From the NCBI RefSeq assembly GCF_002160255.1, contig NZ_NFKF01000001.1, positions 496,001-560,000 of the forward strand: 64,000 nucleotides of DNA, written 5' to 3'. Below, piece by piece: positions 1 through 11,276 of this stretch. The position numbers were made by a program, and so were the translations under genes. Each line of letters opens with the position of its first letter. The stretch's first letter is position 1. The notes under the pieces were generated by a model, which did no database searches, was not told the DNA's origin, and worked only from the letters and a program-made list of their open reading frames with translations. The DNA comes from Olsenella sp. An188 (GTDB lineage: Bacteria; Actinomycetota; Coriobacteriia; Coriobacteriales; Atopobiaceae).

Positions 1-3000
1 CCGCGCGGGCTGGCCGTGCGCCGCACGTGCTCCTCGATGAGCGCGCGGATTTCCGCGAGCTCCTCGGCGCTCGGTGCCTCGAGGTCCACGAGCTCGGCGT
101 TGCAGCGCCGCGCGAGCGTGCCGAACTGGTCGTACACGTAGGCGACGCCCCCCGACATGCCCGCAGCGAAGTTTGGTCCCACCTCGCCGAGCACGAGCAC
201 GCGCCCTCCGGTCATGTACTCGCAGCCGTGGGCGCCCACGCCCTCCACGACCACCGTGGCCCCGGAGTTGCGCACGCAGAAGCGCTGGCCGGCGAGGCCG
301 TTGACGAACCCGCGCCCCCCCGTGGCGCCGTAGAAGGCCACGTTGCCCACGATGACGTTCTCGTCGAACTTGTACGTTGCCCCCTCGCGCGGGCGCACCG
401 AGACCACGCCCCCCGAGAGCCCCTTGCCAAAGTAGTCGTTGGCGTCGCCGGAGATGCTGAGCGTCACGCCCGCCGGCAGGAACGCGCCGAAGCTCTGGCC
501 GCCGGAGCCCTCGCAGTCCACCGTGATCGAGCCCTCGGGCAGCCCCTCGGGGTGCGCCTTGGTCACGCGGCTTCCCAGCAGCGTCCCCACGCAGCGGTTG
601 ACGTTGTCGATGTCGGCGTGGAAGCGGACGGGCGTGAGGTGCTCGCGGGCGGCCTCGGTGTAGGGCACGAAGAGCGTGGCGTCGAGGGTCTTCTCCAGCT
701 CAAGGTCGGGGCCCATCTCGGGGAGGAAGTGCCGCCCGTCGGCCCCGGGGATGGCCCGCCCGAACTCGCAGGTCGCGGGGGCGAGAAGGTCCGTGAGGTC
801 GAGCAGGTTGGCCTTCCAGTTGGCCTCCCCCTCCACGCGGACCTGCGTGAGGCAGTCGGAGCGGCCCACCATCTCGTCCACCGTGCGAAATCCCAGCGAC
901 GCCATGATCTCGCGCAGCTCCTCGGCGACGAAGGTCATGTAGTTGACCACGTGCTCGGGCCTGCCGGAGAAGCGCCCGCGCAGCGCGCAGTTCTGCGTGG
1001 CGATGCCGGCGGGGCAGGTGTCGCGCTGGCAGTCGCGCTGCATGAGGCAGCCGCAGGCGACGAGCGGCATCGTCGCAAAGCCGAACTCCTCGGCGCCGAG
1101 AAGCGCGGCGATTGCCACGTCGCGGCCGCTCATGAGCTTGCCGTCGGTCTCGAGCACCACGCGGGAGCGCAGGCCGTTGCGCACGAGCGTCTGCTGCGTC
1201 TCGGCGAGGCCGATCTCGAACGGGATGCCTGCGTGGTAGATGGAGTCGCGCGGGGCGGCGCCGGTGCCGCCGTTGTGCCCGGAGACGAGGATCTTGTCGG
1301 CCCCTCCCTTTGCCACGCCCGTGGCGATGGTGCCCACGCCCGCCAGCGCGCACAGCTTCACCGAGACGCGCGCGTCGGGGTTGGCGTTCTTGAGGTCGAA
1401 GATGAGCTCCGCCAGGTCCTCGATCGAGTAGATGTCGTGGTGCGGCGGTGGCGAGATGAGCCCGACGCCGGGCGTGGACTGGCGCACCTCCGCGATCCAC
1501 GGGTAGACCTTGCGCCCGGGCAGGTGGCCGCCCTCGCCGGGCTTGGCGCCCTGGGCCATCTTGATCTGGATCTCGACGGCGCTCGTGAGGTAGCGGCTCG
1601 TCACGCCGAAGCGCCCCGAGGCCACCTGCTTGATGGCCGAGCGTCGCGAGTCGCCGTTCGGCAGCGCGGTCTCGCGCGCCGGGTCCTCGCCGCCCTCGCC
1701 GGTGTTGGAGCGCCCGTGCAGGCGGTTCATGGCGATGGCCAGGCACTCGTGCTGCTCGCGGCTGATCGAGCCGTAGCTCATCGCGCCGGTGTTGAAGCGA
1801 CGCACGATCTGGCTCGCCGGCTCCACCTCCTCGAGCGGCACGGGCGCGCCGGCCGGCGAGAAGCCCATGAGGTCGCGCAGCGTCACGGCGCGCCCGCCGC
1901 GGTGCACCCACGCGGAGAACTCCCTGAAGAGGTCGTAGTCGCCCTCGCGGCAGGCGCGCTGCAGCAGGTAGATGGCCTTGGGGTCGATGAGGTGCTCCTC
2001 GCCGCCGACCGGGCGCCACTTGGTGAGGCCGAGGGTGGGGAGCTGCTCGGGCGCGGGGGACTTGGCGAGCGCGAGCGCGTCGTCGTAGCGCTGGTCGAGC
2101 TCGCGCTGGAGGTCTGCGACCGTGAGGCCGCCCACGCGCGTGGCCGTGAACGTGAAGTACCTGTCCACGAGCTCGTCGGAGAGGCCCAGAATCTCGAAGA
2201 TCTGCGCGGAGTGGTAGCCCTGCATCGTGGAGATGCCCATCTTGGACATGATCGAGACGATGCCGGCCGTGACTGCGCGGTCGTAGTTGGCGATCGCCTC
2301 ATCGGGCGCGAGCGACAGCTCGCCGCGCGCGCAGAGGTCGGCGATGCAGTCGTGGGCCATGTACGGGTAGATGCCGGAGGCCGAGAAGGACACGAGGCAC
2401 GCGAAGTCGTGCGCCGAGAACGCGTCGCCAGACTCCACCACGAGGTCGGCGCGGGTGCGCAGGCCGCAGCGGATGAGGTGGTTGTGCACGCAGCCCAGGG
2501 CCAGCAACGACGGGACGCTCACCTCGCCGGCCGCCGCGCGGTCCGAGATCACCACGATGTTGGCGCCGGCGCGCACGTCCTTCTCGACGCGCGCGGCAAG
2601 CTCGTCGAGGGCGTGCTCGAGGGCGCCCGGGCCTCCGGAGCGCGGGTAGGTGGCGCTCACGCGGGCAACGCCAAAGCCCACGCGGTCGATCGCGCAGACG
2701 CGGCGGAAGTCCGCCTCGGAGAGCATCGGGCCCGGCAGGAGCACGAGGCGGCAGGTGTCGCGGCAGTCCTCGAGGAGGTTGCCGTGGTTGCCGAGGTAGA
2801 GCACCGAGCTCGTGACGAGGCTCTCACGCAGCGCGTCGATCGGCGGGTTGGTGACCTGGGCGAAGAGCTGGTTGAAGTAGTCGAAGAACGAGCGGTGCCT
2901 CGTGGAGAGGCACGCGAGCGGGGCGTCGGTGCCCATGGAGGCCAGGGGCACGCCGCCCTTCTCGGCCATGGGGCGCACGACCTCGTCCACGTCGTCGAAG

Positions 3001-4433
3001 TGGTAGCCGAGGCGCGCCATGCGCGTCACGAGCGGCACGCCCGCGTCGCGCTCCGCCGGCAGGCCCGAGGCGTCCGGCTCGGCGAGGTCGGCGAGGTCGA
3101 TGGTCTCCTGGTCGAGCCAGTCGCGGTAGGGCTTCTCGGCCGCAAACCGGTCGCGGATCTCGTCGTTCCAGATGACGCGCCCCTGGTCGGGGTCGACCTC
3201 GAGCATCTCGCCGGGGCCGAGGCAGCCCGCGCGCAGGACGTTCTCGGGCTCCACGTCGATGGTGCCCACCTCGGAGGAGAGGATCAGGCGCTCGTCGCGA
3301 GTGACGTAGTAGCGCGCGGGGCGCAGGCCGTTTCTGTCGAGCGCGGCGCCCACGAGCCGCCCGTCGGTGAAGACGATCGCCGCCGGCCCGTCCCAGGGCT
3401 CCATGAGCATGGACTGGTAGGCGTCGTATGCGCGGCGCTTCTCGCTGAGCTCCGCGTTGTGGTCCCACGGCTCGGGCATCATGAGGGTCACGGCGCGGTC
3501 GATGGGCCGACCGTTCATCGTGAGAAACTCGAGCACGTTGTCCAGGATCGCGGAGTCCGAGCCCTCGCGGTTGATGATCGGCATGACGCGCTCGAGGTCG
3601 GCGCCGAGCTCCGGCGAGTAGAGCATGGGCTCGCGGGCGCGGATCCAGGAGACGTTGCCGCGCAGGGTGTTGATCTCGCCGTTGTGGATGATGAGGCGGT
3701 TGGGGTGCGCGCGCTCCCAGCTGGGGGTGGTGTTGGTGGAGTAGCGCGAGTGCACCAGGGCGAGCGCCGTCTCCACCGCGGCGTCGCCGAGGTCGAGGTA
3801 GAAGCGGCGCATCTGCGTTGCGACGAGCATGCCCTTGTAGACGATCGTGCGGCTGGACATGGAGCACACGTAGAAGATCTTGCCCGCGAGCGCCGGGGTC
3901 GCGTCGGCGGCGCGCTCGATGGTGCGGCGGGTGACGTAGAGGCGCCGCTCGAAGTCGCGACCGCGCGCGACGTCGTCCGGGCGGCGCAGGAACGCCTGAT
4001 AGATGGTCGGCATGCAGGCGCGCGCCGTGGAGCCGAGGTCGTGCGGGTCGACCGGCACCTCGCGCCAGAACAGCAGCGGCACGCCGCACTCCGCGCACCC
4101 GCGCTCGAAGACCTGGCGGGCCGCGGTGACGCCAGCCGGGTCCTCGTGCGGCAGGAAGAGCATGGCGACGCCGTAGTCGCCCTCGTCGGGAAGGAGCTGG
4201 CCCTCCTTCTGCGCCTCCTTGCGGAAGAAGCGGTGCGGGACCTGGAAGAGCACGCCCGCGCCGTCTCCGGTGTTCTTCTCGAGACCCTTGCCGCCGCGGT
4301 GCTCGAGGTTGACGAGCACCGAGAGCGCGTCGTCGAGCGTCTGGTGGCTGCGCCTGCCCTGCAGGTGCGCGATGGCGCCGATGCCGCAGGCGTCGTGCTC
4401 GTACTCGGCGCGGTAGAGGCCGTCTGTGCCCAT
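1..4433 (-). CDS. gltB: Glutamate synthase (GOGAT) large subunit, 3' end outside window
   Basis: Makes two glutamates from 2-oxoglutarate and glutamine in the cytoplasm. The ATG at 4433 follows the ribosome site AAGGGGG. About 1477 residues are present against roughly 1500 in the family, so only the last few tens are missing. The N-terminal class II amidotransferase nucleophile is Cys16 in EHDACGIG. The central and FMN-binding synthase domains follow, with GAMSYGSIS and GGHLPGRKV. The [3Fe-4S] cysteines lie near residues 1124-1143 (CGCLMQRDCQRDTCPAG). The C-terminal GXGXG-type glutamate synthase domain closes the visible part. The small subunit gltD is not in view and may lie past position 1. 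The upstream gap holds only repeats. Family assignment is secure. Confidence 0.96.
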   Translation of the reverse strand, partial: MGTDGLYRAEYEHDACGIGAIAHLQGRRSHQTLDDALSVLVNLEHRGGKGLEKNTGDGAGVLFQVPHRFFRKEAQKEGQLLPDEGDYGVAMLFLPHEDPAGVTAARQVFERGCAECGVPLLFWREVPVDPHDLGSTARACMPTIYQAFLRRPDDVARGRDFERRLYVTRRTIERAADATPALAGKIFYVCSMSSRTIVYKGMLVATQMRRFYLDLGDAAVETALALVHSRYSTNTTPSWERAHPNRLIIHNGEINTLRGNVSWIRAREPMLYSPELGADLERVMPIINREGSDSAILDNVLEFLTMNGRPIDRAVTLMMPEPWDHNAELSEKRRAYDAYQSMLMEPWDGPAAIVFTDGRLVGAALDRNGLRPARYYVTRDERLILSSEVGTIDVEPENVLRAGCLGPGEMLEVDPDQGRVIWNDEIRDRFAAEKPYRDWLDQETIDLADLAEPDASGLPAERDAGVPLVTRMARLGYHFDDVDEVVRPMAEKGGVPLASMGTDAPLACLSTRHRSFFDYFNQLFAQVTNPPIDALRESLVTSSVLYLGNHGNLLEDCRDTCRLVLLPGPMLSEADFRRVCAIDRVGFGVARVSATYPRSGGPGALEHALDELAARVEKDVRAGANIVVISDRAAAGEVSVPSLLALGCVHNHLIRCGLRTRADLVVESGDAFSAHDFACLVSFSASGIYPYMAHDCIADLCARGELSLAPDEAIANYDRAVTAGIVSIMSKMGISTMQGYHSAQIFEILGLSDELVDRYFTFTATRVGGLTVADLQRELDQRYDDALALAKSPAPEQLPTLGLTKWRPVGGEEHLIDPKAIYLLQRACREGDYDLFREFSAWVHRGGRAVTLRDLMGFSPAGAPVPLEEVEPASQIVRRFNTGAMSYGSISREQHECLAIAMNRLHGRSNTGEGGEDPARETALPNGDSRRSAIKQVASGRFGVTSRYLTSAVEIQIKMAQGAKPGEGGHLPGRKVYPWIAEVRQSTPGVGLISPPPHHDIYSIEDLAELIFDLKNANPDARVSVKLCALAGVGTIATGVAKGGADKILVSGHNGGTGAAPRDSIYHAGIPFEIGLAETQQTLVRNGLRSRVVLETDGKLMSGRDVAIAALLGAEEFGFATMPLVACGCLMQRDCQRDTCPAGIATQNCALRGRFSGRPEHVVNYMTFVAEELREIMASLGFRTVDEMVGRSDCLTQVRVEGEANWKANLLDLTDLLAPATCEFGRAIPGADGRHFLPEMGPDLELEKTLDATLFVPYTEAAREHLTPVRFHADIDNVNRCVGTLLGSRVTKAHPEGLPEGSITVDCEGSGGQSFGAFLPAGVTLSISGDANDYFGKGLSGGVVSVRPREGATYKFDENVIVGNVAFYGATGGRGFVNGLAGQRFCVRNSGATVVVEGVGAHGCEYMTGGRVLVLGEVGPNFAAGMSGGVAYVYDQFGTLARRCNAELVDLEAPSAEELAEIRALIEEHVRRTASPR

Positions 4434-6228: not shown

Positions 6229-6352
6229 GGGGACCTCCTCGTTCTTCTCGCAGGATACCCGATGTCGACCACCGGCATACCGCACCACGGGGGCGTCCCA
6301 AACGCTACCATTGACGCAGGGGGAAACGTCCGCCGCAAGCGAAGGGAGCCTC

Positions 6353-8314
6353 ATGCTCGAGGACTACGCCAAGGCCCGCAAGCTTGGCCTCAAGCAGGTT
6401 GAGCGTGACGTCTCGGACGGCCACTACCCCTATCCCCCCGCGCTCGACGACATCCTCAAGAACCAGGGCTACCAGGGCGAGGTGCCCGTCGGCCTCACCG
6501 AGGTGGACCTGACGCTCATCGCCGGAACCAAGACGCGCGGGCGCCAGAACATGTTCTCGAGCGACTTCATGCCCATCGCGGAGGCGAGCTCGGAGTTTGC
6601 CGCCAAGTGGAGCGACCTCATCGACTCCCAGCGCGCCGAGGGCCTGCGCGACCCGATCGTCGTCTACGAGTACCTGCAGCGCTTCTACGTGCAGGAGGGC
6701 AACAAGCGCGTCTCGGTCTCGCGCTACCTCGGCATGCCCACCATCCTCGCCAACATCACGCGCGTGATCCCCATGCCGTCGGACGAGAAGGCCCTGCGCG
6801 TCTACCACGAGTTCACGCGCTTCTACCGCGTGGCGCCCATCTACGGCATCATCTCGTCGGAGGAGGGCTTCTACGCGCGGCTCGCGGCGCTGCTCGACCA
6901 GGACCTCGACACCCCCTGGCCCGAGGGCGTCGTGCGCGACCTGCGCTCGGTCTTCGACGCCTTCTCGTCGGCGTTTCGCGCGCGGGGCGGCGACTCGCTC
7001 AACCTGCAGGTCGGCGACGCACTGCTCACCTACGTGACGATCTTCGGCTTCGAGCACGTGCGCGCCCTCTCCCCCGCCCAGGTCGGCGAGGAGGTCGGCC
7101 GCATCTGGGGCGAGTTCGTGGTGACCCAGGGCGAGGGCGCGCGGGCCTACCTCGAGGACCCGAGCCTCGAGCGCACCGCGCCGCTGCCCAAGCTCAAGAA
7201 CCTCGCCAAGACGGCGGTTCTCGCCAAGCCCTTCCGCGTGGCCTTCGTCTACGACCGCAACCCGCTCTCCTCGGGCTGGATCGCGCTTCACGAGCGCGGC
7301 CGCGAGAAGCTCGAGCGGCGCCTCGGGGCGACCGTCTCGACGCTCTCCTTCACCGACCGAAGCTCCGACGCCGCCTTCGACCAGGCCATCGACGAGGCCG
7401 TCGAGCGCGGGACGGACCTCGTGATCACCTGCTCCCCCACCCAGATGCGCCAGACGCTGCGCGCCGCGGCCGAGCACCCGGGTCCGGCCTACCTCAACTG
7501 CTCGGTGAGCCTCTCGCACAGCGCCGTGCGCGGCTTCTACGGGCGCATGTACGAGGCGAAGTTCCTGCTCGGCGCGCTCGCGGCGAGCCTGGCGGGCCAC
7601 CACAAGGTGGGATACGTCGCCGAGTCCCCGGTCTTCTCGACCGTGGCGGAGATCAACGCCTTCGCCATCGGGGCCGCCATGGTCGACCCGTACGCGACCG
7701 TGCACCTCAAGTGGCTCTCGGCCAAGGACTACGACTGGCGCCGCGAGCTGCGCGAGGAGGGCGTGCACATCATCTCCGGGCGCGACTACGCCAACCCCCT
7801 CGCCCCGCGCGAGTCCTGGGGCCTGTACCGCGTGGGCGACAACGGCTCCGAGGAGCACCTCGCCGAGCCCGTCTGGAAGTGGGGCCGCTACTACGAGCTG
7901 CTCGTGCGCTCCATCAGAAACGACACCTGGAAGAAGGAGGGCGAGAAGATCCAGGGGCAGTCGCTCAACTACTGGTGGGGCATGTCCGCCGGCGTGCTCG
8001 ACGTGCGTCTCTCGCCCGAGCTACCGCGCGGCCAGCGCATGCTCGTCGACGTCCTGCGCCAGTCGGTCCTCTCGGGGCGCGTCCACCCGTTCACCGGCGA
8101 GCTCGTCGCCCAGGGTGGCGACGTGGTCCAGGGCCCGGACGCAGGGCGCCTCACGAGCGAGCAGATCGTGCGGATGCGCTGGCTCAACGAGAACGTGATC
8201 GGGCGCCTCCCGGAGCAGCGCGAGCTCTCCCGCGACGGCCTCGTGGAGGTCGAGGTGGCCGGGGTCATCCCCGTCGACCCCTCGACGGTCCTGCTCAAGG
8301 ACACGAGCCGCTAG
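6353..8314 (+). CDS. Cytosolic ParB/Srx-like domain fused to BMP-type nucleoside-binding domain
   Basis: 653 residues; the ATG at 6353 follows GAAGGGAG. Residues about 60-140 resemble the ParB/sulfiredoxin fold: DPIVVYEYLQRFYVQEGNKR has the PIxV strand and the G-N-K-R turn (116-119), followed by a helix and ANITRVIP. Residues about 293-560 match the basic membrane protein (BMP/Med) periplasmic-binding fold, beginning FRVAFVYDRNPLSSGW. There is no signal peptide or lipobox, although BMP proteins normally bind nucleosides outside the cell. It is followed after 9 bp by a phosphoesterase gene, so the two are probably co-transcribed. A cytosolic nucleoside sensor is an inference; the domain order is what the sequence shows. 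Confidence 0.75.
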   Translation: MLEDYAKARKLGLKQVERDVSDGHYPYPPALDDILKNQGYQGEVPVGLTEVDLTLIAGTKTRGRQNMFSSDFMPIAEASSEFAAKWSDLIDSQRAEGLRDPIVVYEYLQRFYVQEGNKRVSVSRYLGMPTILANITRVIPMPSDEKALRVYHEFTRFYRVAPIYGIISSEEGFYARLAALLDQDLDTPWPEGVVRDLRSVFDAFSSAFRARGGDSLNLQVGDALLTYVTIFGFEHVRALSPAQVGEEVGRIWGEFVVTQGEGARAYLEDPSLERTAPLPKLKNLAKTAVLAKPFRVAFVYDRNPLSSGWIALHERGREKLERRLGATVSTLSFTDRSSDAAFDQAIDEAVERGTDLVITCSPTQMRQTLRAAAEHPGPAYLNCSVSLSHSAVRGFYGRMYEAKFLLGALAASLAGHHKVGYVAESPVFSTVAEINAFAIGAAMVDPYATVHLKWLSAKDYDWRRELREEGVHIISGRDYANPLAPRESWGLYRVGDNGSEEHLAEPVWKWGRYYELLVRSIRNDTWKKEGEKIQGQSLNYWWGMSAGVLDVRLSPELPRGQRMLVDVLRQSVLSGRVHPFTGELVAQGGDVVQGPDAGRLTSEQIVRMRWLNENVIGRLPEQRELSRDGLVEVEVAGVIPVDPSTVLLKDTSR

Positions 8315-8323
8315 GGGGCGACC

Positions 8324-8965
8324 ATGAGGATCCTCGCCATATCGGACGTGCCGGAGGGCTGGCTCTGGGAGCGCTGGGACCGCGAGCGCGTGGCCGGGGT
8401 CGACCTCATCATCTCCTGCGGCGACCTGCCGGCCACCTACCTCGAGCACATCGTCACGCTCGCCAACGTGCCGCTGCTCTACGTCCAGGGCAACCACGAC
8501 ACCGCCTACGACGACCACGCGCCGGAGGGCTGCGTCTCCATAGACGGGCAGCTGCGCGACTTCTGCGGCTTGCGCATCATGGGCCTTGGCGGGTCGATCC
8601 GCTACAACGACGAGGTCCACGGCTTCACCGAGGCGGAGATGGCGAGAAAGGCCGCGCGCATGGCACTTCTCGCCAGCGCCACCGGCGGGGTCGACGTCAT
8701 CGTGACGCACGCGCCCCTGCGCGGCTACGGCGACCTCGACGACCTCCCCCACCGCGGCTTCGAGGCGCTCGGGCGGCTCATCGAGCGCACGCGGCCGCGC
8801 TACCTGCTGCACGGCCACGTGCACATGGAATACGGCCGCATCGAGCGCGTGCGCGAGCACCCCTGCGGGACCACGATCGTCAACGCCTGCGGCTCCTACG
8901 TGCTCGACATCCCCGACGAGTCGATCGGCGGCCGCAGCGGCCTGTTCGGCGTGGAGGGCGTCTAG
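8324..8965 (+). CDS. Metallophosphoesterase family protein
   Basis: 213 residues. The start at 8324 lies 9 bp after the previous stop. It has the calcineurin-like metal-ligand blocks in order: SCGDLP (about 27-32), GNHDT (about 56-60), THAPL (about 127-131) and LLHGHVH (about 166-172). The usual first block D-x-H appears as SDVPEG, so the first histidine is absent. This may be a family trait rather than decay, because similar ISDE/ISDV starts are common in Firmicutes relatives. It probably hydrolyses a phosphodiester or phosphomonoester in the cytosol; the substrate is unknown. Its pairing with a nucleoside-binding-like protein suggests a nucleotide, which is only an inference. Confidence 0.85.
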   Translation: MRILAISDVPEGWLWERWDRERVAGVDLIISCGDLPATYLEHIVTLANVPLLYVQGNHDTAYDDHAPEGCVSIDGQLRDFCGLRIMGLGGSIRYNDEVHGFTEAEMARKAARMALLASATGGVDVIVTHAPLRGYGDLDDLPHRGFEALGRLIERTRPRYLLHGHVHMEYGRIERVREHPCGTTIVNACGSYVLDIPDESIGGRSGLFGVEGV

Positions 8966-8999: not shown

Positions 9000-11192
9000 C
9001 TAGTCCACGCGCTCGAGGCGGTACATGAAGTTCTCGTAGGGCGAGTTCGGCACCGTGAGCGGCAGGCCCATGTCCATGAGGGCGTCGGCCGAGAACTCGG
9101 TCCCGTTGCTCACCATGCGATACGTGGCCCCCGGCGTGAGGCCACGCGGCACGACGTAGTTGGCCTTGGCATAGCCGTCCACGCGCGTGACCACGGCGCA
9201 CACGAGCGCCTCGGAGCCGTCCTCGCTCACGAACTCCCATGCCGCCACGTCGTCAGCCCTGGGATCGCTGAGGCGATAGAACAGCCCCTCGCGCACGAGG
9301 TGCTCGATGTCGCGATAGGTCTTGACCTGGGTGCGGATAATCTCGCAGGCGCGGTCGGGCAGGTCCATCAGATCAAGCTCGTAGCCAAAGGCGCCGCCCG
9401 CCATGGCCACCGTTCCGCGCGCGCCGAGCGGCACGGTGCGGCCCGTGATCTCGTTGGGGCAGGCCGAGACGTGCGCGCCCACCGCGGAGCACGGGTAGCC
9501 AAAGGAGGTGCCGTACTGGATCTCCAGGCGGTTGCGGGCGTCGGTGTTGTCCGACGTCCAGATCTGCGGCGTGTAGTAGAGCATGCCCGCGTCGAAGCGC
9601 CCGCCGCCCGCCGAGCACCCCTCGATGAGCAGGTCCGGGTAGCGCGTGCGCACGCGCTCGAGCAGGTCGTAGAGACCGAGCATGTAGTCGTAGAGGACCT
9701 TGCCCTGGTCGGTGGCCACGCGGGAGTACACGTCCACGATCGAGCGGTTGTAGTCCCACTTGACGTACTCGATGCCGCCCTGGTCAAGCACGGCGCTGAG
9801 CTGCTCGAAGAGGTTGTCGCGCACATCGGCGCGGGAGAGGTCCAGGACCAGCTGGTCGCGACCGAGCACGGGGTCCTTGCCCGGGATGGCAAGCGCCCAG
9901 TCTGGATGCTCGCGGAACAGGTCGGAGTCCTCGTTGACCATCTCGGGCTCGACCCAGATGCCGAAGCCCAGGCCGCACTCGTTCACGCGGCGCGCGAGGT
10001 CGGCCACGGTCCCCCCGAGCTTGGCCATGTTGGGCACCCAGTCGCCCAGGCCACGATGGTCGTCGGAGCGGGCCCCAAACCAGCCGTCGTCCATGACGAG
10101 CATGTCAAGGCCGAGGTCGGCGGCCTTCTTGGCCAGCTCCACGAGCCTGTCGCCCGTGAAGTCAAAGTAGCAGGCCTCCCAGCTGTTGATGAGCACGGGG
10201 CGCGGGCTGTCGCGCCAGGGGCCACGGCAGACGCGCTCGCGGATGCAGCGGTGCAGGTTGTGCGAGATGCGCTCGAGGCCGGCCGCCGAGTAGGTCATGA
10301 TGACCTCGGGCGCCACGATCTGCTCGCCGGGCTCGAGCGGGTAGGAGAAGAGGTCGGAGGCCAGGCCCATCTGCATGCGGGTCTGCTCAAACTGGTCGCG
10401 CTCCACCTCGGCAAGGAAGCTGCCGCTGTAGACAAAGCTCATGGACCAGGCGCGGCCGGAGGTCTCGGTGGCGTCGCCGTCACAGAGAACCATCACCGGG
10501 TTGTACTGGTTGGAGGACATACCGCGGCGGCTGCCCACGCTAAAGGAGCCGTTGCCCACGGCATGGCGAGAGAGACGGCGCTCCATCGCGTGGCGCCCGT
10601 CAAAGGTGATGACGTCAAAGTCACCGGTCACGAAGTCGAGGCAGGCGGTCTGCGCCTTCTCCACGGTGATGCGCCCGGTCCCGACGTTTTTGATGACGGC
10701 GGCACGAGTGATGACGTCGTAGGCGGGCATCAGTCCATAGAGGAGCTCCACCTCTAGGCCAAGGCGCTCGTCGGCGAGCGTGATCGAGAGGCTCTGAGCC
10801 GCGTCCTGCTGACCCTCGTCGTAGACGGCCGGCAGGCCCGGCAGGCCGTACTTACCGTCGCGCAGCTCGTGGGACTTGTAGCGCAGGTCGCACCCAAAGG
10901 TTCCGTCGTCACCGCGAACCATCAACAGGGGGCTCCTCATGTCGCCCTCGCCCTGGAAGGGATACTCCTGCGGAAGGACGTCGAGCGAGTAGGTGCGGTC
11001 CGCCACGTCATGCGGGCAGCCGCACATGCCGCTGCGGTCCGCGTAGGTGATGAGATAGGACGTGTTGGCAGACGTCCTGGCGCCATAGTAGAGATGGAGC
11101 AGATAGCCGTGCTCGTCGACCCGCATCTGATAGGTGGTCCGCTCGGTAGAGAGCGTGAAGATGCGCTCGGGGGCATCGTACGAAAGGGGCAT
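9000..11192 (-). CDS. aga: Alpha-galactosidase, GH36
   Basis: 730 residues, the usual length for bacterial tetrameric GH36 enzymes. The ATG at 11192 is preceded by AGGAG; a GTG four codons earlier overlaps that ribosome site and is less likely. The catalytic nucleophile is the Asp in YVKWDYN (about residue 479). The acid/base is the Asp in WTSDNTDARN (about residue 546). No signal peptide is present, so it cleaves imported melibiose, raffinose or stachyose in the cytosol. It is the last gene downstream of an MsmEFGK-type importer, from which a hairpin separates it. The match to GH36 rather than GH27 rests on length and the KWDxN/SDNTD motifs. Confidence 0.95.
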   Translation of the reverse strand: MPLSYDAPERIFTLSTERTTYQMRVDEHGYLLHLYYGARTSANTSYLITYADRSGMCGCPHDVADRTYSLDVLPQEYPFQGEGDMRSPLLMVRGDDGTFGCDLRYKSHELRDGKYGLPGLPAVYDEGQQDAAQSLSITLADERLGLEVELLYGLMPAYDVITRAAVIKNVGTGRITVEKAQTACLDFVTGDFDVITFDGRHAMERRLSRHAVGNGSFSVGSRRGMSSNQYNPVMVLCDGDATETSGRAWSMSFVYSGSFLAEVERDQFEQTRMQMGLASDLFSYPLEPGEQIVAPEVIMTYSAAGLERISHNLHRCIRERVCRGPWRDSPRPVLINSWEACYFDFTGDRLVELAKKAADLGLDMLVMDDGWFGARSDDHRGLGDWVPNMAKLGGTVADLARRVNECGLGFGIWVEPEMVNEDSDLFREHPDWALAIPGKDPVLGRDQLVLDLSRADVRDNLFEQLSAVLDQGGIEYVKWDYNRSIVDVYSRVATDQGKVLYDYMLGLYDLLERVRTRYPDLLIEGCSAGGGRFDAGMLYYTPQIWTSDNTDARNRLEIQYGTSFGYPCSAVGAHVSACPNEITGRTVPLGARGTVAMAGGAFGYELDLMDLPDRACEIIRTQVKTYRDIEHLVREGLFYRLSDPRADDVAAWEFVSEDGSEALVCAVVTRVDGYAKANYVVPRGLTPGATYRMVSNGTEFSADALMDMGLPLTVPNSPYENFMYRLERVD

Positions 11193-11276
11193 GTGGCTCC
11201 TCACTTTCCTCTCTTTGCCGGAAGTCCGGGCAGAGTGTAGCGCATGAGACGGAACGGTGGATCCAACGAGGGGGAC

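Follow-up and report, generated by a model that had tools for sequence, protein, structure and literature searches.

A predicted cytosolic ParB-like/BMP fusion protein of Olsenella sp. An188 and the phosphoesterase paired with it

The gene pair

The window analyzed here is a stretch of 64,000 nucleotides from Olsenella sp. An188 (contig NZ_NFKF01000001.1, positions 496,001 to 560,000 of the forward strand), and this report concerns two consecutive genes on its plus strand. Gene 1 encodes a fusion of a ParB-like half with a BMP ligand-binding domain, and gene 2, which starts after a spacing of 9 bp, encodes a calcineurin-like metallophosphoesterase. The original prediction, made from the sequence alone, had placed the pair at 6353 to 8965 with 9-bp coupling, and both statements were exact. 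Genome comparison revealed a steady pairing of ParB/SerK-like proteins with this phosphoesterase, and the two genes would encode one cytosolic unit. The following features were assigned (window positions, strand):

6353 to 8314, plus: gene 1, ParB-like/BMP fusion protein, 653 amino acids, predicted cytosolic (ATG start at 6353, stop at 8314)
6470 to 6772, plus: ParB/sulfiredoxin-like domain, residues ~40-140 (element order in the model, profile searches)
6698 to 6709, plus: G116-N-K-R119, corresponding to the P motif (G-x-x-R) of ParB-fold proteins (position from alignment with sulfiredoxin and ParB)
6788 to 7162, plus: helical middle domain, residues ~146-270 (model; the portion to ~226 is common with the stand-alone ParB-like family)
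7220 to 8212, plus: BMP (PnrA/AtzT-like) ligand-binding domain, residues 290-620 (Pfam, profile and fold search)
8324 to 8965, plus: gene 2, calcineurin-like metallophosphoesterase, 213 amino acids, MPPED2-like fold (Pfam, model, fold search)
8345 to 8356, plus: phosphoesterase motif I, D8-V9-P10-E11
8489 to 8500, plus: phosphoesterase motif III, G56-N-H-D59
8813 to 8824, plus: phosphoesterase motif V, G164-H-V-H167

Relatives of the fusion are encoded at no fewer than 565 places in public genomes. Among the matches listed, the nearest in named records came from Olsenella and Thermophilibacter strains (86-89% identity; loci L032-L044).

Co-occurrence of the fusion and the phosphoesterase

Of the 80 loci fetched, 79 had the phosphoesterase gene after the fusion gene; the contig of the remaining locus (L088) ends 80 bases after the fusion. 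A sample of 200 genomes from one Lachnospiraceae-type family, to which the Lachnospiraceae bacterium of locus L077 belongs, contained 76 genomes with both genes, 123 with neither, and one (G666) with a phosphoesterase only, a truncated fragment at a contig end. Every one of the 76 fusion genomes thus carried the phosphoesterase (Fisher p 3e-55, relatedness uncorrected), and the co-occurrence is more than chance. The pairing of the two genes in the original prediction therefore recurred in other genomes.

The genes were adjacent and in the same direction in 69 of the 76 genomes (median distance between the matched stretches, 17 bases). In three genomes (G614, G645, and G710) both genes were full-length and located in the interior of different contigs, showing that both genes can be retained after their linkage is broken. 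The other unlinked or rearranged pairs lay on contig fragments (G693), on opposite strands at a distance of ~3.6 kb (G631), in divergent orientation (G776), or in reversed order (G729). Among 296 Actinomycetota genomes, that of the window included, the full fusion was present in eight, always in the gene order of the window and always adjoined by the phosphoesterase; the remaining 18 genomes of their class in the sample lacked both genes. Two of 299 Bacillota genomes drawn evenly contained the full fusion, one of them being the center of the draw.

An apparently older pair without the BMP domain

The phosphoesterase was also found without the fusion, in 54 genomes of Actinomycetota and 16 of Bacillota. 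With G666 added, these formed a set of 71 genomes, and a profile of the ParB-like protein (E ≤ 0.001) matched in 68 of them, mostly in frames too short for the fusion and in some genomes (e.g. G065 and G578) with the first domain only. The two genes were located within 3 kb of each other in 66 of the 71 genomes, 63 of these pairs lying within 251 bases, and in 65 of the 66 close pairs the phosphoesterase gene preceded the ParB-like gene, unlike the order seen with the fusion. The remaining five genomes had the two genes on different contigs (G104), a ParB-like match that was incomplete and lay on another contig (G319), no match (G304), a contig end (G666), or a phosphoesterase with D-x-H, which is another kind of enzyme (G418).

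As a control, 80 of the 234 Actinomycetota genomes without the phosphoesterase were searched. Seventy-five of these were taken in handle order up to G096, minus G091 and G095, and a ParB-like gene was present in one of them; the other five had been picked for a prior match to the N-terminal domain, all five matched, and they stand outside the count of 1 in 75. Because the pairing occurred without the BMP domain in 68 of 71 genomes, the ParB-like half and the phosphoesterase appear to be the older partners. Their association spans two phyla, Actinomycetota and Bacillota, and seems to predate the fusion.

When 100 phosphoesterases were placed in a tree, a single branch (support 99/92) separated all 77 fusion-linked enzymes from the others. 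This is consistent with a single fusion event, the BMP domain having joined the ParB-like protein later and apparently once. The tree was rooted at its midpoint for drawing only; nine loci were excluded (seven same-genome duplicates, the truncated L180, and L198, a D-x-H phosphoesterase of another kind), and among its 23 "standalone" rows L178 and L197 had no ParB-like neighbor. The original prediction had treated the pair as one system: the partnership is real, whereas the older partners are the ParB-like protein and the phosphoesterase, with BMP a later arrival.

Among the loci listed, which were judged partly by eye, the neighbors of the older pair were without a common theme and included genes for adenine deaminase (G304), purD (G319), nagA (G495), and Sir2. 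Phosphoesterase genes stood just after adenine deaminase (L197, 11118-13046), purD (L178, 1-336), and nagA (L194, 5947-7122), cases too few to name a pathway. Some Bacillota showed the order phosphoesterase, ParB-like gene, and Sir2/CobB deacetylase, which was identified by NCBIfam in L186 (5310-7797) and by eye in L188, L190, and L192. A long frame in G157 had suggested a fusion of phosphoesterase and ParB-like protein; this candidate was rejected, as the two lie in different frames.

The ParB-like half

The predicted structure of residues 40-140 comprises strands 40-52 and 56-59, helix 81-95, strands 102-107 and 110-115, helix 117-125, and strand 130-140. This order (strand, strand, helix, strand, strand, helix, strand) fits the order of the ParB fold. 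Similarity to PF02195 alone was weak: the window protein reached 13.4 bits at a cut-off of 26.3 bits, and no other ParB model of Pfam was over its cut-off. A profile of residues 1-150 (38 sequences) was compared with 177,635 PDB sequences and gave sulfiredoxin as best match (E 0.025), then ParB (E 0.71) and glutathione transferase (E 1.8). Neither of the first two matches is significant singly, and both were aligned on the GNKR motif, residues 116-119, in which G116, N, and R119 were conserved in 58/58 aligned fusions and K in 57/58.

Further evidence came from an uncharacterized stand-alone family of ParB/sulfiredoxin/SerK-like proteins of roughly 300 amino acids. In hhalign, the profile of residues 1-278 (24 sequences) matched that of the stand-alone family (14 sequences) with 98.9% probability, E 1.1e-17, over 194 columns. 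Stand-alone members in turn matched the NCBIfam models for SerK (4/14, best E 1.7e-4), Noc (2/14), and ParB (2/14), and one of the 14 matched PF02195 (E 0.0061). Against PDB sequences the stand-alone profile gave six sulfiredoxins (E 0.73-1.9), and eight of the 14 members showed weak similarity to DUF4032. Their motif is D-G-[HN]-H-R, with D, G, H, and R invariant in 14/14; its counterpart in the fusions is E-G-N-K-R, with lysine in 57/58 where the stand-alone members carry the invariant histidine. Fold searches with the whole model of the fusion gave only BMP or periplasmic binding proteins and no ParB-type structure among the matches listed, because the BMP domain fills the list.

Several weaker lines are therefore concordant, and the N-terminal half is probably ParB/SerK-like in descent, although not to be filed as a member of PF02195 or SerK. 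The ParB/sulfiredoxin-like N terminus with GNKR that had been predicted originally is thus supported by homology to the stand-alone family and by the fitting element order. In several Actinomycetota genomes the long form was accompanied by additional, short ParB-like copies of ~150 amino acids, which lack the middle domain (e.g. L031, 1405-1860, and L161, 1497-1961).

The BMP half

The gene 1 product scored 49.1 bits with PF02608 (cut-off 24.1) and was the single match to this family in its own genome. The family profile found AtzT (E 2.2e-54) and the Brucella protein 3s99 (E 5.9e-52) among PDB sequences. An AlphaFold model of the fusion, made from 58 sequences, had a mean pLDDT (predicted local distance difference test) of 89.4 and a pTM (predicted template modeling score) of 0.82, and it superposed on AtzT (6pi5) with a Z-score of 32.2 over 306 residues (root mean square deviation 2.8, 26% identity). 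The alignment of the fusions consisted of the window protein and 57 of the 80 fetched fusions, chosen by hand for spread; L078 was set aside owing to a stop in its end-extended reading.

None of the 58 aligned members, the window protein included, had a lipobox in the first 45 residues or a hydrophobic N terminus, the highest 15-residue hydropathy within the first 70 residues being 1.85. This check combined a lipobox search with simple hydropathy and took the starts at the aligned start codons. It agreed with the original description of a cytosolic BMP fusion without an export signal.

According to the available part of the AtzT paper, guanine is contacted by Ser97, Glu165, Asn218, Asn220, the Phe98 backbone, Tyr45, and Trp194 (PMC6834077). 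These residues were mapped onto the fusions by profile alignment, the paper's numbers being equal to chain index + 5 as counted from the printed alignment. The site of the stacking Tyr45, Trp309 in the window protein, was Trp in 57/58 fusions, Ser97 was kept in 41/58, and the Asn220 site held Asp or Glu in 58/58. The site of the purine-holding Glu165 was occupied by Gly (49), Ser (8), or Asn (1) and never by Glu, the Phe98 site was Pro in 49/58, and Trp194 had no clear counterpart. For comparison, 48 BMP proteins of other loci, presumed to be exported forms, gave 49 hits, of which 44 kept Glu165 and 47 had Phe or Tyr at the Phe98 site. The alignment thus suggests that the fusions have kept a ligand pocket in which the purine grip is altered alike throughout. 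Nucleoside binding by the BMP domain, as in the original prediction, was rejected as an established property: its closest relatives bind purine bases (PMC6834077, as far as available), and because Glu165 is lost in 58/58 fusions a "nucleoside sensor" is not established.

RefSeq names a Collinsella aerofaciens member a BMP-family ATP-binding cassette (ABC) transporter substrate-binding protein. The evidence assembled here does not support this name, and the candidate was rejected on the missing export signal and the altered pocket.

The phosphoesterase

The gene 2 product scored 45.5 bits with PF12850 (cut-off 27). Its model (pLDDT 95.4, pTM 0.93) had no added domain and was closest to MPPED2 (Z 19.2), aq_1956 (18.1), and TT1561 (17.1), followed by Mre11 (15.2), Rv0805 (15.0), and Dbr1 (14.8). 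For conservation, the window protein was aligned with 54 phosphoesterases from the same loci as the fusions, chosen by hand for spread; L050, L061, and L102 were set aside because of a stop in the end-extended reading. Motifs II-V (GD, GNHD, H, and GHxH) were intact and invariant in 55/55, including all four residues of motif III and the G and both H of motif V. The invariant residues were D8, D34, N57, H58, D59, H129, H165, and H167, and further D137, D140, H143, and G145.

In motif I, Asp was present in 55/55, and the histidine of D-x-H at position 10 in 0/55; this position was Glu in 51, Pro in 2, Val in 1, and Arg in 1. The 23 phosphoesterases outside the fusion clade likewise lacked the motif-I histidine in all cases, as read from their N termini. 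The missing first histidine, which had been noted originally for the window copy (D8-V9-P10-E11), is therefore a trait of the whole family and not decay of this copy, and with the other motifs invariant the idea of a degenerate phosphoesterase was rejected. The window copy has Pro10 where 51/55 relatives have Glu, and Pro recurs in L055, L210, and L214. Each of eight genomes tested contained exactly one match to the phosphoesterase family.

Neighboring genes and upstream region

Three further features were assigned around the pair:

6303 to 6311, plus: CGCTACCAT box, 41 bases 5' of the gene 1 ATG (identical in the window and in 9/9 close relatives aligned)
6342 to 6348, plus: AAGGGAG, the likely ribosome-binding site of gene 1 (sequence reading; same start residue in 7 close relatives aligned)
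9000 to 11204, minus: alpha-galactosidase-like gene, converging on gene 2 (by eye)

Upstream of the CGCTACCAT box most bases vary among the window and the nine close relatives, and the box is a possible -10 region of a promoter common to them. An Rfam scan around the genes gave two matches, both far below the gathering score, and a scan of nine loci gave nothing over it.

The phosphoesterase was the only constant neighbor of the fusion (permeases were not searched for as such). Galactose genes recurred: galK near 23, galT near 18, alpha-galactosidase near 12, and galE near 5 of the 80 loci, galK and galT being named by Pfam and the other two by eye. At least one was present in the flanks of 30/80 loci, divided into 27/44 for L032-L075 and 3/36 for L076-L111. 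They were found upstream or downstream of the fusion, in the same or in opposite direction, and the galK genes were of two kinds with 65-100% and 36-38% identity to that of L032, the galK of L072 being 25% identical. The varied placement and the two kinds of galK show that the association is not one frozen arrangement; these loci are nonetheless related, share synteny, and are not independent. In the Lachnospiraceae-type genomes, galK was within 10 kb of the fusion in 2/76 (G614 and G789), and 3/76 were without a galK match; such a match was also absent from 29/70 genomes with the older pair (G666 left out). The galactose association may tell of a ligand in Coriobacteriales and not of the core function. 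MalK-type ABC ATPases, which are parts of sugar-uptake systems, were found at varied distances in the flanks of 13/80 loci and of the window. Among the recurrent neighbors identified, no DNA-repair, RNA-processing, or cyclase gene was recognized.

Locus L204 (NZ_OY725717.1, 564269-576152) is titled plasmid 6 of C. aerofaciens, yet rplA, rplK, nusG, secE, and tuf adjoin the pair and the record looks chromosomal. A search of viral contigs gave no match. A 10.3-kb "Bacteriophage sp." record from human feces (MT836456.1) encodes a nearly full-length fusion at 1630-3489 (96% of the query) and is perhaps bacterial DNA in a phage-labeled contig.

Comparison with known systems

The fusion shares its BMP fold with AtzT (6pi5/6pi6) and Brucella 3s99, as well as the stacking aromatic residue (Tyr45 in AtzT, Trp309 here), Ser97 in 41/58, and an acid at the Asn220 site. 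It differs from AtzT in lacking the twin-arginine translocation (TAT) signal, in carrying Gly, Ser, or Asn for Glu165 and Pro for Phe98 (49/58), and in the added ParB-like half. The Med-type ComK activator of Bacillus halodurans (2hqb) is likewise a BMP protein that its PDB title calls a transcriptional activator and not a transporter part; its chain of 283 residues is the BMP domain alone, unlike the fusion, and it is not known to have a phosphoesterase partner. Gene 2 has the fold of MPPED2 (3rl3/3rl4/3rl5; Z 19.2) and Thermus TT1561 (1uf3; Z 17.1) with the motifs GD, GNHD, and GHxH, and is set apart from both by the missing motif-I histidine, the invariant D137, D140, H143, and G145, and the ParB-like partner.

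Like ParB, Noc, SerK, and sulfiredoxin, the fusion shows, in its model, the strand/helix order of the ParB-CTPase fold. It further shares with these proteins the G-x-x-R motif and the habit of fusing to other domains (PMC12704722, available part); unlike them, it stays below the PF02195 cut-off and has EGNKR instead of the letters of ParB and sulfiredoxin. The available part of the survey by Kaljevic et al. (2025), which searched with PF02195, describes ParB-fold proteins that bind CTP, ATP, or GTP through G-x-x-R and reports that R-to-A exchange in this motif abolished NTP (nucleoside triphosphate) binding in the binders tested (PMC12704722). The terms "bmp" and "phosphoesterase" are absent from its main text. 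SerK, an ADP-dependent kinase of free serine, had once been annotated as ParB (PMC5120207, available part). Its model was matched by 4/14 stand-alone relatives and by 0/24 fusion halves, and the histidine of the stand-alone motif is Lys in the fusions. The individual folds are known. In the literature searched, which included the main text of PMC12704722, neither the consistent association of ParB-like proteins with one phosphoesterase across two phyla nor the joining of such a protein to a BMP domain that lacks an export signal was found.

Discussion

Overall, the original interpretation was partly supported. For the function of the pair we tentatively prefer, without rating it as probable, a ligand-gated nucleotide-binding or phosphotransfer protein that works with a dedicated phosphoesterase on one phospho-metabolite. 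The ParB-like domain would bind a nucleotide through G-x-x-R and would either phosphorylate a small molecule, in the way that SerK phosphorylates serine, or switch its state with the nucleotide. The BMP domain would close on a cytosolic small molecule and thereby gate the ParB-like domain, and the phosphoesterase would remove or cleave the phosphate ester made or presented by the gene 1 protein. The likeliest form would be a kinase and a phosphoesterase by which one phospho-metabolite is made and unmade. We lean to this reading because of the co-occurrence in 76/76 genomes, kept in three with the genes on different contigs; the older pairing (68/71 genomes against 1/75 without the phosphoesterase); and the homology of the fusion half to a stand-alone family that touches the SerK, Noc, and ParB models. 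Further reasons are the invariant G-x-x-R, whose R-to-A exchange abolished NTP binding in tested relatives (PMC12704722, available part), the clear BMP fold (Z 32.2), the invariant phosphoesterase motifs II-V, the Trp at the stacking site in 57/58, and the Asp or Glu at the Asn220 site in 58/58.

Several observations weigh against the proposed kinase/phosphoesterase couple. A ParB-like gene without the phosphoesterase was present, though rarely, in at least 6/234 Actinomycetota genomes. No neighborhood was common to the older pair among the loci listed, which were judged partly by eye, and galactose genes recurred around the fusion only, mainly in Coriobacteriales. The stand-alone profile gave only sulfiredoxins and no SerK among PDB sequences at E ≤ 5, and the SerK model was matched by 0/24 fusion halves at E ≤ 0.5. 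With the histidine replaced by lysine in the fusions, phosphotransfer may have been lost, leaving only switching. Nucleotide preference is not readable from sequence (PMC12704722, available part), and biochemical data for any family member were not found.

The replacement of histidine by lysine would suit an NTP-dependent switch that is not a kinase, in which the ParB-like domain, changing state when a nucleotide is bound or hydrolyzed, turns a phosphoesterase for RNA or DNA ends on and off and BMP adds a metabolite input. ParB-fold proteins are CTP-dependent switches, with ATP or GTP bound by relatives (PMC12704722, available part), and the phosphoesterase model resembles Mre11 (Z 15.2) and Dbr1 (Z 14.8), which act on nucleic acids. 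It resembles MPPED2 (Z 19.2) as well, however, 4 Z units above these two, and with 213 amino acids, no added domain in the model, and no DNA-repair or RNA-processing gene recognized among the recurrent neighbors identified, we regard the switch as somewhat unlikely. A role in the Leloir pathway, with the unit acting on or responding to one of its sugar phosphates or nucleotide sugars, is unlikely. Such a role would account for the galactose genes that flank 30/80 loci and the window, in varied arrangements and with galK of two kinds, and one stand-alone phosphoesterase follows nagA (G495); but the association shrinks to 3/36 loci in L076-L111 and to 2/76 Lachnospiraceae-type genomes with galK within 10 kb (3/76 have no galK match at all), 29/70 older-pair genomes lack any galK match, and the 27 related loci with common synteny are not independent.

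The resemblance to MPPED2, with Rv0805 also listed (Z 15.0), raises the idea of nucleotide signaling, in which gene 2 would encode a phosphodiesterase for cyclic nucleotides or dinucleotides whose nucleoside or purine product the fusion would sense, as BMP relatives bind purines and nucleosides (PDB titles; AtzT, PMC6834077, available part). We consider it improbable, since the substrate does not follow from the fold alone, all 58 fusions lack the purine-holding Glu, the older pair has no BMP domain, and no cyclase was recognized among the recurrent neighbors identified. That gene 1 encodes an ordinary ABC-transporter substrate-binding protein for purines or nucleosides is very improbable, although the C. 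aerofaciens member is so annotated, the BMP domain exceeds the Pfam cut-off, and MalK-type ATPases flank 13/80 loci and the window. All 58 fusions lack a lipobox and a hydrophobic N terminus, the N-terminal 280 residues have another fold, the pocket is unlike that of other BMP proteins, and the constant partner is a phosphoesterase, the MalK-type ATPases being sugar-uptake parts at varied distances. Chance neighborhood, or co-inheritance without function, might be entertained for two genes neither of which has a named function; it is highly unlikely in view of the 76/76 co-occurrence (Fisher p 3e-55, relatedness uncorrected) that includes unlinked pairs, and of the same partners in the other gene order in Actinomycetota.

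If the proposed couple of a kinase- or switch-type ParB/SerK-fold protein and an antagonist phosphoesterase is taken one step further, the pair would be a new metabolite control module that adjusts how much of a single phosphorylated small molecule is present; this module would be old in both Actinomycetota and Bacillota, with BMP captured as a cytosolic sensor in Coriobacteriales and some Bacillota. This extended view is conceivable, if rather doubtful. The Collinsella member bears the public name of an ABC transporter component, and relatives of the fusion are encoded at 565 or more places. Which nucleotide an orphan ParB-fold protein uses, and for what, can be put to a direct test in this system, since the phosphoesterase partner offers a second approach to the substrate, and the conserved module deserves biochemistry.

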